Positions 323-16,471 of a stretch of 64,000 nucleotides of DNA are shown piece by piece (the first letter of the stretch is position 1; each line of letters opens with the position of its first letter). The translations under genes and the position numbers were made by a program. The notes under the pieces are model-generated. The model ran no database searches, had not been told where the DNA came from, and saw only the letters and a list, made by a program, of their open reading frames with translations. Origin of the DNA: Fusobacteria bacterium ZRK30. Its GTDB lineage: Bacteria > Fusobacteriota > Fusobacteriia > Fusobacteriales > Fusobacteriaceae. Where the stretch lies: NCBI GenBank assembly GCA_024628785.1, contig CP102405.1, forward strand, positions 806,001 through 870,000, in the 5' to 3' direction.

Positions 323-1384
323 ATGAAAAAAATTATACCGTTTATATTATTATCTGCCGGTTTATTAACTGGATGTTTTAAAGGAAAAGAAGAAGTAAAA
401 ACTGTTGAAGAAACAAAAGTACCAAAGGCTACAAAAGAATTAAATATATATACAGAAAGACATTATGACATAGACAAAGAATTGATTGCAGAATTTGAAA
501 AAGAGACTGGAGTTACTGTAAATGTAGCTAAAGCCGGGGCAGACGAACTGTTAAAAAAGTTAGAGATAGAAGGAGCTGATACTCCTGCTGACCTATTCAT
601 TACTAAAGATGCAGCAAGGCTTGGGAGAGCAAAAGATTTAGGATTATTACAACAAATAAAAGATAAAGAAGTATTGGAATTAGTTCCTGCAAACATAAGA
701 GATAAGGACAACTACTGGACTTCATTTACTTACAGAGCCAGAATATTTGCATACAACAAAGAAACTACAGATCCTTCTATATTTTCTACATATGAAGATT
801 TAGCTGATCCTAAGTGGAATGGAAAAGTGTTAGTTAGAAGTTCAACAAACTCATATAATCAGGCATTGATAGCTTCTATGATAGCTGCTAATGGTGAAGA
901 GGCAACTAGAGAATGGATCCAGGGGTTAGTAGCTAATATGGCAAGGGAACCTAAGGGTAATGACAGAGACCAAAGTAAAGCAGTAATTGCCGGAATTGGA
1001 GAAGTTGCTATTATGAACTCTTACTATCTTGGAAAAATGATCCACTCAGCAGATCCTGAAGAGAGAAAAGTTGGGGAACAAATAGCTATATTCTTCCCTA
1101 ATCAAGATGGCAGAGGAACTCATATCAACGTAAGTGGAATGGGAATTACAAAATATTCAAAAAATATTGTAAATGCTGAAAGATTCATAAAGTTTTTCTT
1201 AAATGAAAAATCACAAAGTAGATTTACAAATGAAAACTATGAATACCCTTCAAATAAAAACGTAGCAGTAAACGGTACAGTTAAGTCATGGGGAGATTTC
1301 AAAGTAGACAGCTTAACTTTATCTGAGTTAGGAAAGAACTTTAAAAAAGGAACGATCATAGCCGATGAGGAAGGTTGGAAATAA
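323..1384 (+). CDS. Fe(III) ABC transporter substrate-binding lipoprotein
   Basis: This is an extracellular solute-binding protein of the FbpA/FutA ferric-iron type, which captures Fe(III) outside the inner membrane and passes it to the permease encoded next. The N-terminus is a lipoprotein signal with lipobox LTGC, modified at Cys18. The start of the mature domain (NIYTERHYD) and the tandem tyrosines Y234-Y235 in NSYYLGKM match the iron-coordinating region of the family. Its 353 residues are a normal length. AGGAGG precedes the ATG. The gene is first in an operon with a permease and an ATPase. Iron is the best guess from the Tyr pair; other trivalent metals or chelates are not excluded. Confidence 0.88.
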   Translation: MKKIIPFILLSAGLLTGCFKGKEEVKTVEETKVPKATKELNIYTERHYDIDKELIAEFEKETGVTVNVAKAGADELLKKLEIEGADTPADLFITKDAARLGRAKDLGLLQQIKDKEVLELVPANIRDKDNYWTSFTYRARIFAYNKETTDPSIFSTYEDLADPKWNGKVLVRSSTNSYNQALIASMIAANGEEATREWIQGLVANMAREPKGNDRDQSKAVIAGIGEVAIMNSYYLGKMIHSADPEERKVGEQIAIFFPNQDGRGTHINVSGMGITKYSKNIVNAERFIKFFLNEKSQSRFTNENYEYPSNKNVAVNGTVKSWGDFKVDSLTLSELGKNFKKGTIIADEEGWK

Positions 1385-1388
1385 GCCA

Positions 1389-3002
1389 ATGAATTTAAAA
1401 CTTTTAAAGAGGAATCTAAATATTAATTTAGATTCCTGGCTTTTTATAAGCATAATTTTGTCGTTTTTCTTGTTAGCTCCCATTATAACTCTATTTACAA
1501 GTTTAGCGACTCAAAATATAGAAACTTTTATCCATATAGCTGAAACTCTTTTACCTGAGTATATAAGAAACAGCTCTATAATAGCATTATTTACCGGTTT
1601 ATTTACCATGATTATAGGGGTATCTACAGCCTGGATTTTGACTATGTATGAGTTTAAATTTTCTAAACTATTTCATGTGGGGTTAATTTTACCCTTGGCA
1701 ATACCCAGTTATATAGCAGGATATGTCTATTCAGGGATCTTTTCCTATACAGGGATAATCAGCAGAACAGCCAGGAATTTATTTGGATACAATTTAAATT
1801 TAGATATTATGAACATATATGGTGTGATATTTATCTTTACATTTTTTCTCTATCCCTATGTGTTTATCATAGCCAGATCATTTTTCGCCAAACAATCGTT
1901 ATCTATGCTAGAATCAGCTAAGGTACTGGGAAAATCGGATACACAGACATTTTTTTTAGTGGTATTACCCATGGCAAGAACAGCTATTATTGGAGGAGTT
2001 ACCCTGGTTATAATGGAGGTTTTAAGTGCCTTTGGATTGCCTAGTTATTTTGGTGTTCAGACCTTTAGTACAGGTATATTCAGGACATGGCTCACATTAG
2101 GAGATACCGATGCAGCTATAAATTTAGCTATTATTCTTATGGGACTTATCTTTACAATAATCTTTATAGAGAGAAAATCCAGGGGAAGAAAACAGTATTC
2201 TTTTACTAATACTAAGATAAAGCCGATAAATAAAAAGTCACTTTCAACTAAGCATAGTGTTATAGCAATTATTGTCTGTATGATCCCTGTATTATTTGGA
2301 TTCATCATACCTCTGATGCAGCTATTTTCATGGTCACTCATGACCTATAAAGAGGTTATAGATGGAAAATTGATAAAAATAATAATGAATACATTTTTTA
2401 TAGCTATCATAGGAGCAGTCCTTGCAACTATAATAGCAGTTATTATATCCAATACATCCAGGTTGAAAAAAGGAAAGATATCTAAATTCTTATCTAAATT
2501 AACTACGATAGGGTACTCTATTCCAGGGGCAGTTATAGCCATTGGAGTTATGACATTTTTTATCTTTATAGACAGAAAAATTTTAGGAGAAAGAGTATTC
2601 TATGGCACTTTATTTTTAATGGTCTTTGCTTATGTAATAAGATATTTAGCTGTGGCATACAATAGTATAGAGAGTGGATTTGATAAGATTGGAATGAAGT
2701 TTCACGAAGCTTCCAGGAGTCTGGGAGAAGGGAAAACCAAAACATTTTTTAGGGTAGATCTGCCTATGATAAAGGGAAGTGTTATAGGGGCGGTTATTTT
2801 AACGTTTTTAGAAATCATAAAGGAATTACCCCTTACCTTGATTTTGAGACCATTTAATTTTCAAACTCTATCTGCCTATGCTAAACAGTATGCAGATGAC
2901 GAGATGGTACAGCATAGTGCCATTCCATCTATTATACTTATTCTCATAGGGATAATAATAATTCTATTTTTTGAGATAATCAACAAAAAAAAGGAGAAAT
3001 AA
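1389..3002 (+). CDS. Fe(III) ABC transporter permease (fused double permease)
   Basis: This is a membrane permease of the FbpB type, with two homologous transmembrane halves in one chain and about 12 predicted helices. Each half carries an EAA-type loop that docks on the ATPase: ESAKVLGKSDTQTFF in the first half and EASRSLGEGKTKTFF in the second. I place the start at ATG 1389, just after the upstream stop, with GAGGAAGG (1367-1374) upstream. An in-frame ATG at 1365, overlapping the preceding gene, is the alternative and would add 8 residues. It works with the binding protein before it and the ATPase after it. Confidence 0.88.
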   Translation: MNLKLLKRNLNINLDSWLFISIILSFFLLAPIITLFTSLATQNIETFIHIAETLLPEYIRNSSIIALFTGLFTMIIGVSTAWILTMYEFKFSKLFHVGLILPLAIPSYIAGYVYSGIFSYTGIISRTARNLFGYNLNLDIMNIYGVIFIFTFFLYPYVFIIARSFFAKQSLSMLESAKVLGKSDTQTFFLVVLPMARTAIIGGVTLVIMEVLSAFGLPSYFGVQTFSTGIFRTWLTLGDTDAAINLAIILMGLIFTIIFIERKSRGRKQYSFTNTKIKPINKKSLSTKHSVIAIIVCMIPVLFGFIIPLMQLFSWSLMTYKEVIDGKLIKIIMNTFFIAIIGAVLATIIAVIISNTSRLKKGKISKFLSKLTTIGYSIPGAVIAIGVMTFFIFIDRKILGERVFYGTLFLMVFAYVIRYLAVAYNSIESGFDKIGMKFHEASRSLGEGKTKTFFRVDLPMIKGSVIGAVILTFLEIIKELPLTLILRPFNFQTLSAYAKQYADDEMVQHSAIPSIILILIGIIIILFFEIINKKKEK

Positions 3003-3004
3003 TA

Positions 3005-3724
3005 ATGAATTATATAGAATTAAAAAATTTATTTTTTAAATATAGAAACTCTACAGAAGATATTTTAAAAAATATAAATTTTACTGCAAATAAGGGAGAA
3101 ATTACGGCTATCATAGGTGAGAGTGGAAGTGGAAAATCTACCCTGTTACGTATTTTGGCAGGGTTAGAAGTTCCCCAAAAGGGAGGATTAACCATCAATG
3201 AGAGGATTTTTATAGGAGAAGAAACATTTGTTCCAGTGGAAAAAAGAGGAATTGGAATGGTTTTTCAAGATTATGCCCTTTTTCCCCATCTATCTGTGGA
3301 AAAAAATATTTTATTTGGAATGGGAAAGGTAGAAAAAAAATCAGCAAAAAAAAGAGCTGACGAGGTATTAGATCTAGTTAGTATGAAAGATTTTATAAAA
3401 AGATATCCCCATGAATTAAGTGGAGGTCAGCAGCAGAGAGTGGCATTAGCACGTGCTTTAGCTCCTAAACCAGAAGTTATTCTTTTGGATGAACCATTCT
3501 CAAATTTAGATGCTAATCTTCAGGGAAAGATAAGGAATGAGCTGAAAGCGATTTTAAAAACTACTGGAGAAACAGCTGTTTTTGTGAGTCATGATAAGGA
3601 TGATTTAGAGATAGCAGATAGAGTTGTTATCCTGTATATGGGTGAAGTTATTCAGACAGGAGCTCCTATAGAAATTTTTGAAAACCCTAAAAATGAATAT
3701 GTAAGGCACATTTTAGGTATATAA
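3005..3724 (+). CDS. Fe(III) ABC transporter ATP-binding protein
   Basis: This ABC ATPase powers the iron importer. All motifs are intact: Walker A GESGSGKST, Q-loop VFQDYALFPHL, signature LSGGQQQR, Walker B VILLDEPFSNLD and the switch histidine in VSHDKDD. Its 239 residues are shorter than full FbpC or PotA proteins, so the C-terminal regulatory beta domain is missing or minimal. It starts 2 nt after the permease stop with AAGGAG upstream, so the three genes are very likely cotranscribed. A strong terminator follows at 3777-3805. Confidence 0.88.
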   Translation: MNYIELKNLFFKYRNSTEDILKNINFTANKGEITAIIGESGSGKSTLLRILAGLEVPQKGGLTINERIFIGEETFVPVEKRGIGMVFQDYALFPHLSVEKNILFGMGKVEKKSAKKRADEVLDLVSMKDFIKRYPHELSGGQQQRVALARALAPKPEVILLDEPFSNLDANLQGKIRNELKAILKTTGETAVFVSHDKDDLEIADRVVILYMGEVIQTGAPIEIFENPKNEYVRHILGI

Positions 3725-3776: not shown

Positions 3777-3805
3777 AAGGAGGCTGCCCAATAGGCAGCC
3801 TCCTT
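3777..3805. terminator. Bidirectional intrinsic terminator
   Basis: A 12-bp perfect stem (3777-3788 with 3794-3805) around a 5-nt loop, with an A-run before it and T-rich sequence after it. It lies between convergent genes, the iron ATPase and the cupredoxin. Confidence 0.8.
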
Positions 3806-3840: not shown

Positions 3841-4224
3841 CTATCTAACTACCAGTTTTCCAGCCATTTTTTTATGTCCTGAACCACAGTATACGGAACA
3901 TATAATTTCATAAATACCAGGTTTAGGAGCTATGAAATCACCCTCTGCAGGCTTTCCTTTTTTAGCTCTTAGATCAAAATTTATTTCAGAAATTTTAAAT
4001 CCATGTTCTGTGTCCTGAGTAGAAAATTTTATCCTTATTTTTTCACCGTTATTGACAACAATAACATTGGGAGAATAGGAATATCTAAAAGATTCAACCT
4101 CTATCACTCTGACACCTGAAATTGTTTCACCGGAGAGATCATAGGTTGAATAATCCATCTTTTGAGTAGTGGCGAAACTAAGCATAGAAATAATAAAAGT
4201 AAATAAAAATATTAATTTTTTCAT
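3841..4224 (-). CDS. Exported stand-alone CuA-type cupredoxin
   Basis: A 127-residue protein with a signal peptide (residues 1-18, ending SFA) and a single cupredoxin domain. The C-terminal motif CSVYCGSGHKKM (Cys109, Cys113, His117, Met120) together with the upstream His74 in TEHGF is the complete ligand set of a binuclear CuA centre, as in cytochrome oxidase subunit II and N2O reductase. No oxidase or nitrous-oxide reductase gene is nearby and the domain has no membrane anchor beyond the signal. It may be a periplasmic electron carrier or a copper-handling protein. It is a single gene, convergent with the iron operon. Confidence 0.85.
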   Translation of the reverse strand: MKKLIFLFTFIISMLSFATTQKMDYSTYDLSGETISGVRVIEVESFRYSYSPNVIVVNNGEKIRIKFSTQDTEHGFKISEINFDLRAKKGKPAEGDFIAPKPGIYEIICSVYCGSGHKKMAGKLVVR

Positions 4225-4368
4225 ATATCTTCCTCCTTATATTTTTTTTAAAAGTTGTTCTATTGATTTTACCCTGTATTAACTAAAATTCCTTTAAAAT
4301 TAATTTTCAAGACATAGAAGAATTTTTTTAGTATAATACTAAAGTAAATATAAATTTAGGAGGATAAT

Positions 4369-7750: not shown

Positions 7751-9460
7751 TTATTTCATTATTTTTTCTCCGGCTCTCTTTCCAAAGACTAAGATGTCGG
7801 TTATTGCATTCCCTCCCAGTCTATTTGTTCCGTGAATACCGCCTACAATCTCTCCTGCAGCATAAAGACCTTTTATTATATTTCCTTTAATATCTAAAAC
7901 TTCATTTTCGCTGTTTATCTTTATTCCACCCATAGTATGATGAACTGCCGGTGCAACAGTCTGGATATAGAAAGGACCCTTTTCTATCTTTATAAGATTT
8001 CCTCTTCTATTAAATTCTTGATCTTTTCCATTTTCCACATATGAATTATAGGTATTTACAGTATCTTTCAGTGTGTCTAAATTTATACCAAGTTTCTTGC
8101 TGCACTCCTCCATACTACCTTCAATAAATAGATCGGCTCTTTTTAAGCTATCTACCTCTCCTTTATTTTCAGTCGTTCTATTTGCAACTGCTTCTATTTC
8201 CTGTGCCCATACAAGATATCCTACCCCGCCATCTTGAGATAAAATAGCTTGAGAGACTACATCTCTTCTCTCTAATTCTTCTACAAATCTTTTTCCTGAT
8301 CTATTAACCAGGATTGCACCATCAAACCTAGAACCACCTACATGAGATAATGCTCCAGTTAAAGGGTTAGCAATAGGAAAGGTTTGTATATATGACATAT
8401 GGACAAAATCTACTCCCAGTTTTTCACACATCAGGTGTCCGTCTCCAGTTATTCCACTTTGATTAGTTGTTTTATATCTTTCATCTAACTCAGGATTATA
8501 TTTTTTTCTCATCTCTATATTCCCAGAAAACCCACCTGTAGTAAATATAACTCCTTTACTGCCGAAAAATTCAACAGTCTTTCCCTCAGTGATAGCTTTG
8601 ATGCCAACTACTTTTTTATCTTCTGTTATTATATCCTTGGCTTCTACTCCTGTTCTGATCTCTACTCCCAGGTTTTCAGCTTTTTTTCTTAACTTAGAGA
8701 TTAATTCTACAGCATATTTACCTTTAAATATTGCTGCCCTTGGAACGGTATGACCACCAAAATGAATAAGTTCATCTTTTTTAAACTCCACTCCTACCTC
8801 TTCTTTGAGCCAGTTATATGTGTCTAAAGCATTTTCAGATAAGATCTTAAACAACTCCTTATTGTTTTCGCCATCTCCTCCAACAAGAGCATCATTATAG
8901 TAAAGTTCAGGATTATCTTCTATTTTTTTAGATTTTTGAGCATCACTTCCAGGAATATTTATTCCACCCATAGATACTAGGGTATTTCCCCCCACAGCTG
9001 CCATTTTTTCAAGGAGAACAACTTTAGCTCCTAAGTTTGATGCAGAAATTGCTGCACTGAGACCAGCTCCTCCTCCACCAACAATAACTATTTCGAAATT
9101 TTCAACAGGTTTGAATTTATTTTTACTTACTACAATCTTCTCTAAATTTTCAGCATCTTTGAATTCCTTTAGTAAATCTTCTTTATTTTCTCCAGAAAGG
9201 ATAAGAGCATTCATAACAGCTTCCTTTATACCACGGGAACTCATAGAACATCCCTTTACATTGGGAACCATTATAGTGTTTTTTTCTATTATTTTAGAAG
9301 GGACATGATTAAAAGCTGGTTCTGATATTACCGGTGTCTCATTATGTGATAAAAATTCAATACTATTAATTCTACCTTGAACAACCGTGACTAAAGCCTC
9401 GATCTCTCCTGCATACCCAATACCAATACCTTTAAATGAACCATCTTTATATATTTTCAT
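7751..9460 (-). CDS. Fumarate-reductase-like flavoprotein (FMN-bind plus FAD domains)
   Basis: 569 residues in two parts. An N-terminal FMN-binding domain (about 1-95) has KGCSMSSRG where the family usually has SGATxTS. A fumarate-reductase/flavocytochrome c type FAD domain (about 120-569) has the dinucleotide motif IVGGGGAGLSAA. Of the four fumarate-binding/proton-transfer residues of soluble fumarate reductases, Arg399 (ELERRD), His508 (VHHTMGG) and Arg547 (GTNRLGG) are present. The usual His of the TNHPGATGDG-type motif is Gln334 here. There is no signal peptide and no haem domain. It probably reduces an unsaturated carboxylic acid, not necessarily fumarate. It is divergent from a MarR regulator across a large palindrome. 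Confidence 0.82.
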   Translation of the reverse strand: MKIYKDGSFKGIGIGYAGEIEALVTVVQGRINSIEFLSHNETPVISEPAFNHVPSKIIEKNTIMVPNVKGCSMSSRGIKEAVMNALILSGENKEDLLKEFKDAENLEKIVVSKNKFKPVENFEIVIVGGGGAGLSAAISASNLGAKVVLLEKMAAVGGNTLVSMGGINIPGSDAQKSKKIEDNPELYYNDALVGGDGENNKELFKILSENALDTYNWLKEEVGVEFKKDELIHFGGHTVPRAAIFKGKYAVELISKLRKKAENLGVEIRTGVEAKDIITEDKKVVGIKAITEGKTVEFFGSKGVIFTTGGFSGNIEMRKKYNPELDERYKTTNQSGITGDGHLMCEKLGVDFVHMSYIQTFPIANPLTGALSHVGGSRFDGAILVNRSGKRFVEELERRDVVSQAILSQDGGVGYLVWAQEIEAVANRTTENKGEVDSLKRADLFIEGSMEECSKKLGINLDTLKDTVNTYNSYVENGKDQEFNRRGNLIKIEKGPFYIQTVAPAVHHTMGGIKINSENEVLDIKGNIIKGLYAAGEIVGGIHGTNRLGGNAITDILVFGKRAGEKIMK

Positions 9461-16123: not shown

Positions 16124-16471
16124 TGGTGGAAGTGACGGGAATTGAACCCGTGTCCAAGAACACCAGTATCATAGGTTTCTACAAGCTTATTTCGTGAATT
16201 AGTCTCATATAAACTCGTCTCACAAACAGAACCAGTCTATACCAGTCAATTAAAGATGTCCCGCAGGTTTAATGACGAAACCCTTGGTAAGCCTGATGTT
16301 AATTATATTCTACCAGCCTGCACAGGCCTTAGGAAGGTAGAACACGCTGCACTATTAGGCAGCTATTGCGTAATTTTCGTTTCCATTTAAAAAAATGGTT
16401 TGACCTCTCACAGCGATCAACCTGACCTGCTTCCTATAACCTGATGCCCCTGTCGAAACCAGTGCACTCCC
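16124..16471 (-). ncRNA. ssrA: Transfer-messenger RNA (tmRNA)
   Basis: This 348-nt RNA rescues stalled ribosomes. The 3' end (16124 side) is the tRNA-like T arm GGTTCAATTCCCGTC followed by an encoded CCA. The 5' end (16471) begins GGGAGTGCACTGGTTTCGAC, the conserved tmRNA start, and its first 7 nt pair with CACTTCC before the 3' end (one G-U). The internal reading frame ends at 16355 and encodes the degradation tag (N)GNENYAIAA. smpB lies 34 bp upstream on the same strand, the usual partner arrangement. A terminator follows at 16044-16071. Confidence 0.95.

Follow-up and report, generated by a model that had tools for sequence, protein, structure and literature searches.

A stand-alone, secreted CuA-type cupredoxin with possible ties to copper handling in Fusobacteriaceae that have no detectable oxidase

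The window, by which we mean the whole 64,000-nucleotide stretch of DNA analyzed here, carries on its minus strand, at 3841–4224, a gene for a secreted, stand-alone CuA-type cupredoxin of 127 amino acids. The assignment draws on profile, structure-sequence and motif matches and on a predicted model. The reading frame runs from 4224 down to 3841, opens with an ATG codon and has a purine-rich ribosome-binding site. A signal peptide, identified by eye, occupies residues 1–19 (4168–4224, minus strand) at the N-terminus, with cleavage likely after SFA, and the cupredoxin domain is C-terminal. Residues 2–15, in the signal-peptide region, form a low-confidence helix in the predicted model. No lipobox is visible by eye, which suggests that the window protein is probably soluble in the periplasm.

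The CuA ligand set is complete. We find all five ligands at the residue numbers that the first-pass annotation had given them: His74 (codon 4003–4005), Cys109 (3898–3900), Cys113 (3886–3888), His117 (3874–3876) and Met120 (3865–3867), all on the minus strand and each assigned from the sequence, the orthologues and the motif. Their spacing, Hx34Cx3Cx3Hx2M, is the canonical CuA motif as printed in PMC6189053. A six-frame search of the window finds this strict motif a single time, and 300 random windows (order-2 Markov) do not contain it at all. We infer that the protein is loaded with copper, two coppers to each molecule.

The window protein is homologous to the CuA domains of COX2 and NosZ and has a cupredoxin fold. 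It matches the Pfam models Cupredoxin_1 (2e-9) and COX2 (2e-6), each above its cut-off, and its best sequence match among solved structures is the CuA domain of the Thermus ba3 oxidase (E 4.1e-14). Only the last 90 positions of the NCBIfam NosZ model TIGR04246 match (E 3e-12), scoring 45.6 bits against a cut-off of 625, while the CoxB model gives 43.4 bits against 147.7. The AlphaFold2 model, built with alignment A1, has a mean pLDDT of 89.8 and superposes on Thermus ba3 CuA (2cua_A) with Z 15.2 and rmsd 1.8 over 99 residues; among the matches listed, the structure-comparison rows are cupredoxin-type chains.

The gene is conserved in two sister species, with orthologues 90% (G007) and 77% (G002) identical to the window protein. 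For the three pairs among these genes, dN/dS is 0.131, 0.185 and 0.199, and the window's CuA gene is thus under purifying selection (dN/dS 0.13–0.20). The proposal of a small secreted protein with a CuA domain is therefore borne out: the open reading frame is real, the homology is significant, and orthologues exist in both sister species. In G007, the neighborhood of the gene has the same order as in the window, and on this ground we reject contamination of the window contig. G002 retains the CuA gene together with mntP on a short contig that ends beside CuA.

In the window, the CuA gene is solitary, flanked by a convergent ABC transporter and by mntP. An operon with the iron-type ABC transporter (323–3724) is ruled out, because the genes converge with 116 bp between them and a terminator-like hairpin (3777–3805), recognized from the sequence, lies in this gap. 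The hairpin is common to the transporter operon and the CuA gene and separates their transcripts. On the other side, the divergent intergenic region between CuA and mntP (4225–4368) is well conserved, with 89% mean column identity across the two sister species. It includes a perfect 17-bp palindrome, TTTAGTATAATACTAAA (4327–4343), which overlaps the TATAAT of a promoter-like site of mntP and is kept in both sister species, in one of them with a change at its edge. The palindrome is more likely a candidate operator of mntP, a manganese exporter, than of the CuA gene. Among 94 loci, it is found only in the nine that cover the mntP–CuA region of the window's genus, and it therefore says nothing on copper. 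We recognized no copper-responsive operator by eye upstream of the window's CuA gene. Across the whole window, the Rfam search returns only a tmRNA (16124–16471), and thus no manganese riboswitch precedes mntP at the gathering score. Elsewhere in the window, a gene at 7751–9460 on the minus strand encodes a flavoprotein of the flavocytochrome-c type, which has an FMN-binding domain at its N-terminus and in which no signal peptide is visible.

Electrons enter cytochrome c oxidase and nitrous-oxide reductase through CuA centers. The first-pass annotation had noted neither enzyme nearby, and this holds genome-wide at the sensitivity of our COX2, COX1, NosZ and bd searches: no nos or cox operon turned up in a search of the rest of the genome. 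The genome, which belongs to the family of Ilyobacter polytropus, comprises 3.6 Mb in five contigs and is 98.23% complete. Within it, the COX2 model matches this gene only, so that there is no second COX2 domain. The COX1 profile for haem-copper oxidases finds no match in 61 Fusobacteriota genomes, the window's genome included (8 of 14 control genomes matched), and that for cytochrome bd oxidase none in 37 genomes (10 of 14 controls matched). NosZ passes its cut-off in 0 of the 61 genomes, and in 8 of them the model touches only the CuA end of proteins; this control is weak, since no control genome passed the NosZ cut-off. The 61 genomes searched for COX1 and NosZ include 9 of the 15 that encode the CuA protein. 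For the maturation factor SCO1, the window's genome gives no match, while 10 of 37 genomes show weak matches, two of them above cut-off. PF01578, a c-type cytochrome assembly family, is likewise without a match in the window's genome and has one in 1 of 37. The protein itself is not a cytochrome c oxidase subunit II, as it has no membrane anchor and COX1 is found in 0/61 genomes. Nor is it a nitrous-oxide reductase, as only the CuA part of TIGR04246 matches and there is no propeller or CuZ. Together, these results support the view that the CuA-type domain stands alone and that neither an oxidase nor an N2O reductase is detectable in the organism.

In the Fusobacteriota genomes searched, homologues of the window protein all fall within one family. 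The A1 model matches 18 proteins from 15/98 genomes and 5/29 genera, and the strict Hx34Cx3Cx3Hx2M motif is retained in all 18. Judged by eye, the copies of the window's genus (g1) and of genus g4 have plain signal peptides; the others have a lipobox, which suggests that they are probably lipoproteins. In the tree, the window's clade groups with G011 (support 97/98), Ilyobacter-type chromosomal copies form their own group (99/98), and so do two of the three copies found in copper clusters (95/94). The tree supports no particular branching order between these groups. The sole match of a contig scan, a Methanocella locus, was dropped because its site, CNIHPGM, is plastocyanin-like and not CuA. 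We also observed matches on plasmids of aerobes: H16 adjoins an oxidase fragment, H23 adjoins a c-type cytochrome, and H3 is without annotation.

The window's genome has further copper genes. It encodes three Cu-ATPases above cut-off, CsoR-type repressors and an HMA protein. Cu-ATPases are found in 37/37 genomes searched, however, and therefore lend no specific support to a copper role. Contig C4 (50,305 bases; L059, L060) holds a copper island with two Cu-ATPases, the HMA protein, a CsoR-type repressor and CpxP-like proteins. One Cu-ATPase lies almost at the end of this contig and the HMA protein at its start, which suggests that the contig is circular. No CuA gene occurs in the parts of the island that were read, and the COX2 model gives no second copy. 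Multicopper oxidases have no match in the window's genome or in that of G007, though both have CuA.

Two further protein types were observed in the course of this comparison. Small Cys-rich proteins (CCIxNDCAWCAIYMGHC) with an N-terminal hydrophobic stretch are encoded at L060:6411-6932, on contig C4 of the window's genome, and at L063:17456-18061. Their genes adjoin a Cu-ATPase or a multicopper oxidase. Neither Pfam nor NCBIfam has a match for the L060 protein, and the type is possibly an undescribed copper-island protein. A conserved 263-amino-acid membrane polyferredoxin (Fer4_5), found at L091:8913-9704, L092:8866-9657 and L093:8594-9385, lies near genes for a small secreted protein and a two-component system. 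It is a candidate for electron export to the periplasm.

CuA paralogues lie inside copper clusters in three related genomes. These are G031 (I. polytropus DSM 2926, on plasmid pILYOP02), G020 and G016, and in each a multicopper oxidase of 650–680 amino acids is found near the paralogue. The other companions vary and include an HMA protein, a Cu-ATPase and CpxP-like Metal_resist proteins. On pILYOP02, the CuA gene, whose product is entered in the database as “cupredoxin domain-containing protein”, comes after a CMD/peroxidase-related gene. Its cluster also holds two multicopper oxidases, one of them 675 amino acids long, together with an HMA protein, Metal_resist proteins and a two-component system. 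The G020 cluster comprises a multicopper oxidase, HMA-like genes (by eye), a CMD gene, CuA and a convergent Cu-ATPase. That of G016 comprises a Cu-ATPase, another small protein, CuA, a CMD-like gene (by eye) and a multicopper oxidase. The gaps between the CMD and CuA genes are 50, 53 and 81 bp, with membership of the CMD family tested in two of the three clusters. Also on pILYOP02, hcp, rubredoxins and an MBL-fold protein occur within about 9 kb of CuA, and an iron-annotated ABC permease and ATPase occur about 8 kb away, which we count as weak.

Multicopper oxidases and the CuA protein tend to occur in the same genomes. PF07731 multicopper oxidases are found in 12/98 genomes, one of these being a 27-residue open frame, and CuA is present in 7 of the 12 (hypergeometric P 2.5e-4). 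Within the family, 7/15 CuA genomes have a match vs 3/46 others (P 0.0012). Both P values overstate the case, because the genomes are related. All six genomes with the long multicopper oxidase also carry the CuA protein, and 8/15 CuA genomes have no multicopper oxidase match. In G085, multicopper oxidases and an HMA gene occur without a CMD–CuA pair between them, and CuA is on another contig. The genus-g4 copies sit among unrelated genes. In one of seven genus-g4 loci, that of G010, a gene for a secreted MsrA (L035:9171-10102) lies 23 bp downstream of CuA, and the two are a possible methionine-repair pair.

We propose, at a probability of roughly 0.5, that the window protein is a periplasmic copper-handling cupredoxin with a canonical CuA site, that it works in the manner of CupA and that respiration is not its role. 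Four lines of evidence lead to this reading: the usual clients of CuA are missing at the sensitivity of our searches, the ligands are invariant, the only recurrent functional company of the gene is copper resistance, and CupA is matched. In particular, the placement of the relatives' copies in copper-detoxification clusters suggests that the protein probably handles copper. Once exported to the periplasm and folded as a cupredoxin with a canonical CuA-type site, it would capture periplasmic copper in a high-affinity thiolate site and so limit free Cu(I). It could then pass copper or electrons to other periplasmic partners, which in the relatives may be products of the copper-resistance clusters (the multicopper oxidase and the Cu-exporting ATPase). 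Transfer of copper to such a partner is conjectural. The gene in the window stands alone between the ABC transporter and mntP, and we therefore only infer that this unlinked copy does the same job as the copper-cluster paralogues. Against copper handling, the window's copy lies outside the copper island of its own genome, and the strict retention of the five ligands fits an electron-transfer site just as well. The missing multicopper oxidase match in that genome and in 8/15 CuA genomes overall, the separate CuA gene of G085, the unrelated surroundings of the genus-g4 copies and the failure to recognize a copper-responsive operator by eye also weigh against it.

Such an electron-transfer role, in which a membrane polyferredoxin of the NosR/NapH/CcoG kind (Fer4_5) would pass electrons through CuA to a periplasmic acceptor outside respiration, is conceivable, albeit doubtful. 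Possible acceptors are a multicopper oxidase, a reductase and an enzyme of thiol repair. Besides the ligands invariant in 18/18 proteins, the proposal gains from the distribution of Fer4_5, which is found in 11/15 CuA genomes vs 19/83 others and, within the family, in 11/15 vs 14/46 (P 0.006); the genomes are not independent, and the association is confounded by kinship and genome size. The MsrA gene 23 bp from CuA and the CMD/peroxidase-related gene 50–81 bp from it in the three copper clusters would also fit. Yet the polyferredoxin and CuA genes share no neighborhood in the loci read, and Fer4_5 is without a match in 4/15 CuA genomes. The window's genome offers no acceptor that can be named, and the adjacency to MsrA is seen in only 1/7 genus-g4 loci. 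The same MsrA and CMD/peroxidase-related neighbors, together with hcp, the rubredoxins and the MBL-fold protein of pILYOP02, could instead point to surface defense against oxygen, peroxide or nitrogen oxides by copper chemistry. We consider this unlikely, as none of these neighbors is conserved beside the window's copy. Hcp and rubredoxin are, moreover, cytoplasmic.

Two other explanations invoke a respiratory enzyme, either lost or hidden. A relict from a lost oxidase or N2O reductase, retained as an apo-protein for copper-free binding, would agree with the closest matches, which are the CuA domains of these enzymes, and with the failure to detect SCO1 in the window's genome. It is very unlikely given the low dN/dS, the ligands kept in every protein, the signal peptides or lipoboxes seen by eye and the paralogues in copper clusters. 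Most improbable is a hidden partner, an oxidase or N2O reductase that has diverged beyond the reach of the models or is encoded in the missing 2% of the genome. Completeness of 98.23% leaves some room for it, and sensitivity to full NosZ was not demonstrated, with no control passing that cut-off. However, neither COX1 nor NosZ above cut-off occurs in the 61 genomes, 9/15 CuA genomes among them, and both the COX1 and the bd searches matched most of their controls. Of the roles raised by the first-pass annotation, only copper handling has gained evidence, from the CupA match and from the paralogues that three relatives carry in copper clusters; involvement with oxygen or nitrogen oxides has met with weak hints only.

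As a broader, tentative suggestion, this copper-handling cupredoxin may exemplify a CuA center used outside respiration: a free-standing, soluble or lipid-anchored, redox-active copper carrier in the periplasmic copper defense of oxidase-free, fermenting Fusobacteriaceae, possibly recharged by a membrane polyferredoxin. The CuA domain type itself has long been known. The retention of a canonical CuA protein in oxidase-free fermenters and its link to copper defense seem to be new. We found no report of a stand-alone CuA protein in Fusobacteriota, the Ilyobacter cupredoxin included, in titles and the starts of abstracts, a search that left subscription papers mostly outside its scope. A survey prints that most anaerobic bacteria, 62/85, use no copper protein (PMC2147054). 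If our reading is true, it would open to experiment the function of a CuA site freed from respiration, including a possible use of such sites in copper handling. For spectroscopy, the window protein would also offer a CuA protein that is small and soluble by nature.

The closest known systems share either the site or the fold of the window protein. Thermus ba3 CuA (PDB 2cua, 2lln) has the same cupredoxin fold and the same Hx34Cx3Cx3Hx2M motif. Compared with oxidase subunit II, the window protein is separate and secreted, has no transmembrane helix after the signal peptide and has no subunit I in its genome. Between the cysteines it carries Val111, in contrast to the Glu found there in many oxidases. 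The C-terminal CuA domain of NosZ has the same site and fold, and the window protein is without the propeller/CuZ domain. A Bacillus anthracis protein (PDB 4hcf, 4hci) is likewise a stand-alone Cupredoxin_1 domain and is alike by fold (Z 13.7–13.8); its structure is copper-bound, and the entry titles call it uncharacterized.

CupA of Streptococcus pneumoniae (PDB 4f2e, 2mry) has the same fold as the window model (Z 13.2, rmsd 1.9, 95 residues), and a genus-g4 member matches it by sequence (E 2.4e-4). In place of the CupA ligand set of Cys74, Cys111 and methionines, the window protein has the oxidase-type set and is therefore not a CupA. Its cleavable-looking signal is a further difference. The CupA gene lies in a copper-resistance operon, as do the CuA paralogues of G031, G020 and G016 in their clusters, whereas the window's copy does not. 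CupA is described as a cupredoxin copper chaperone with a binuclear site, needed for copper resistance, which uses Cys74, Cys111 and methionines as ligands and hands Cu(I) to the exporter CopA (PMC5646241, PMC7558416). PmoD of methane and ammonia oxidizers is described as an example of a CuA-type spectrum in a small non-oxidase protein, whose site lies between two molecules and has a non-canonical ligand set (PMC6189053). The window protein, in contrast, has the canonical ligand set within a single chain.
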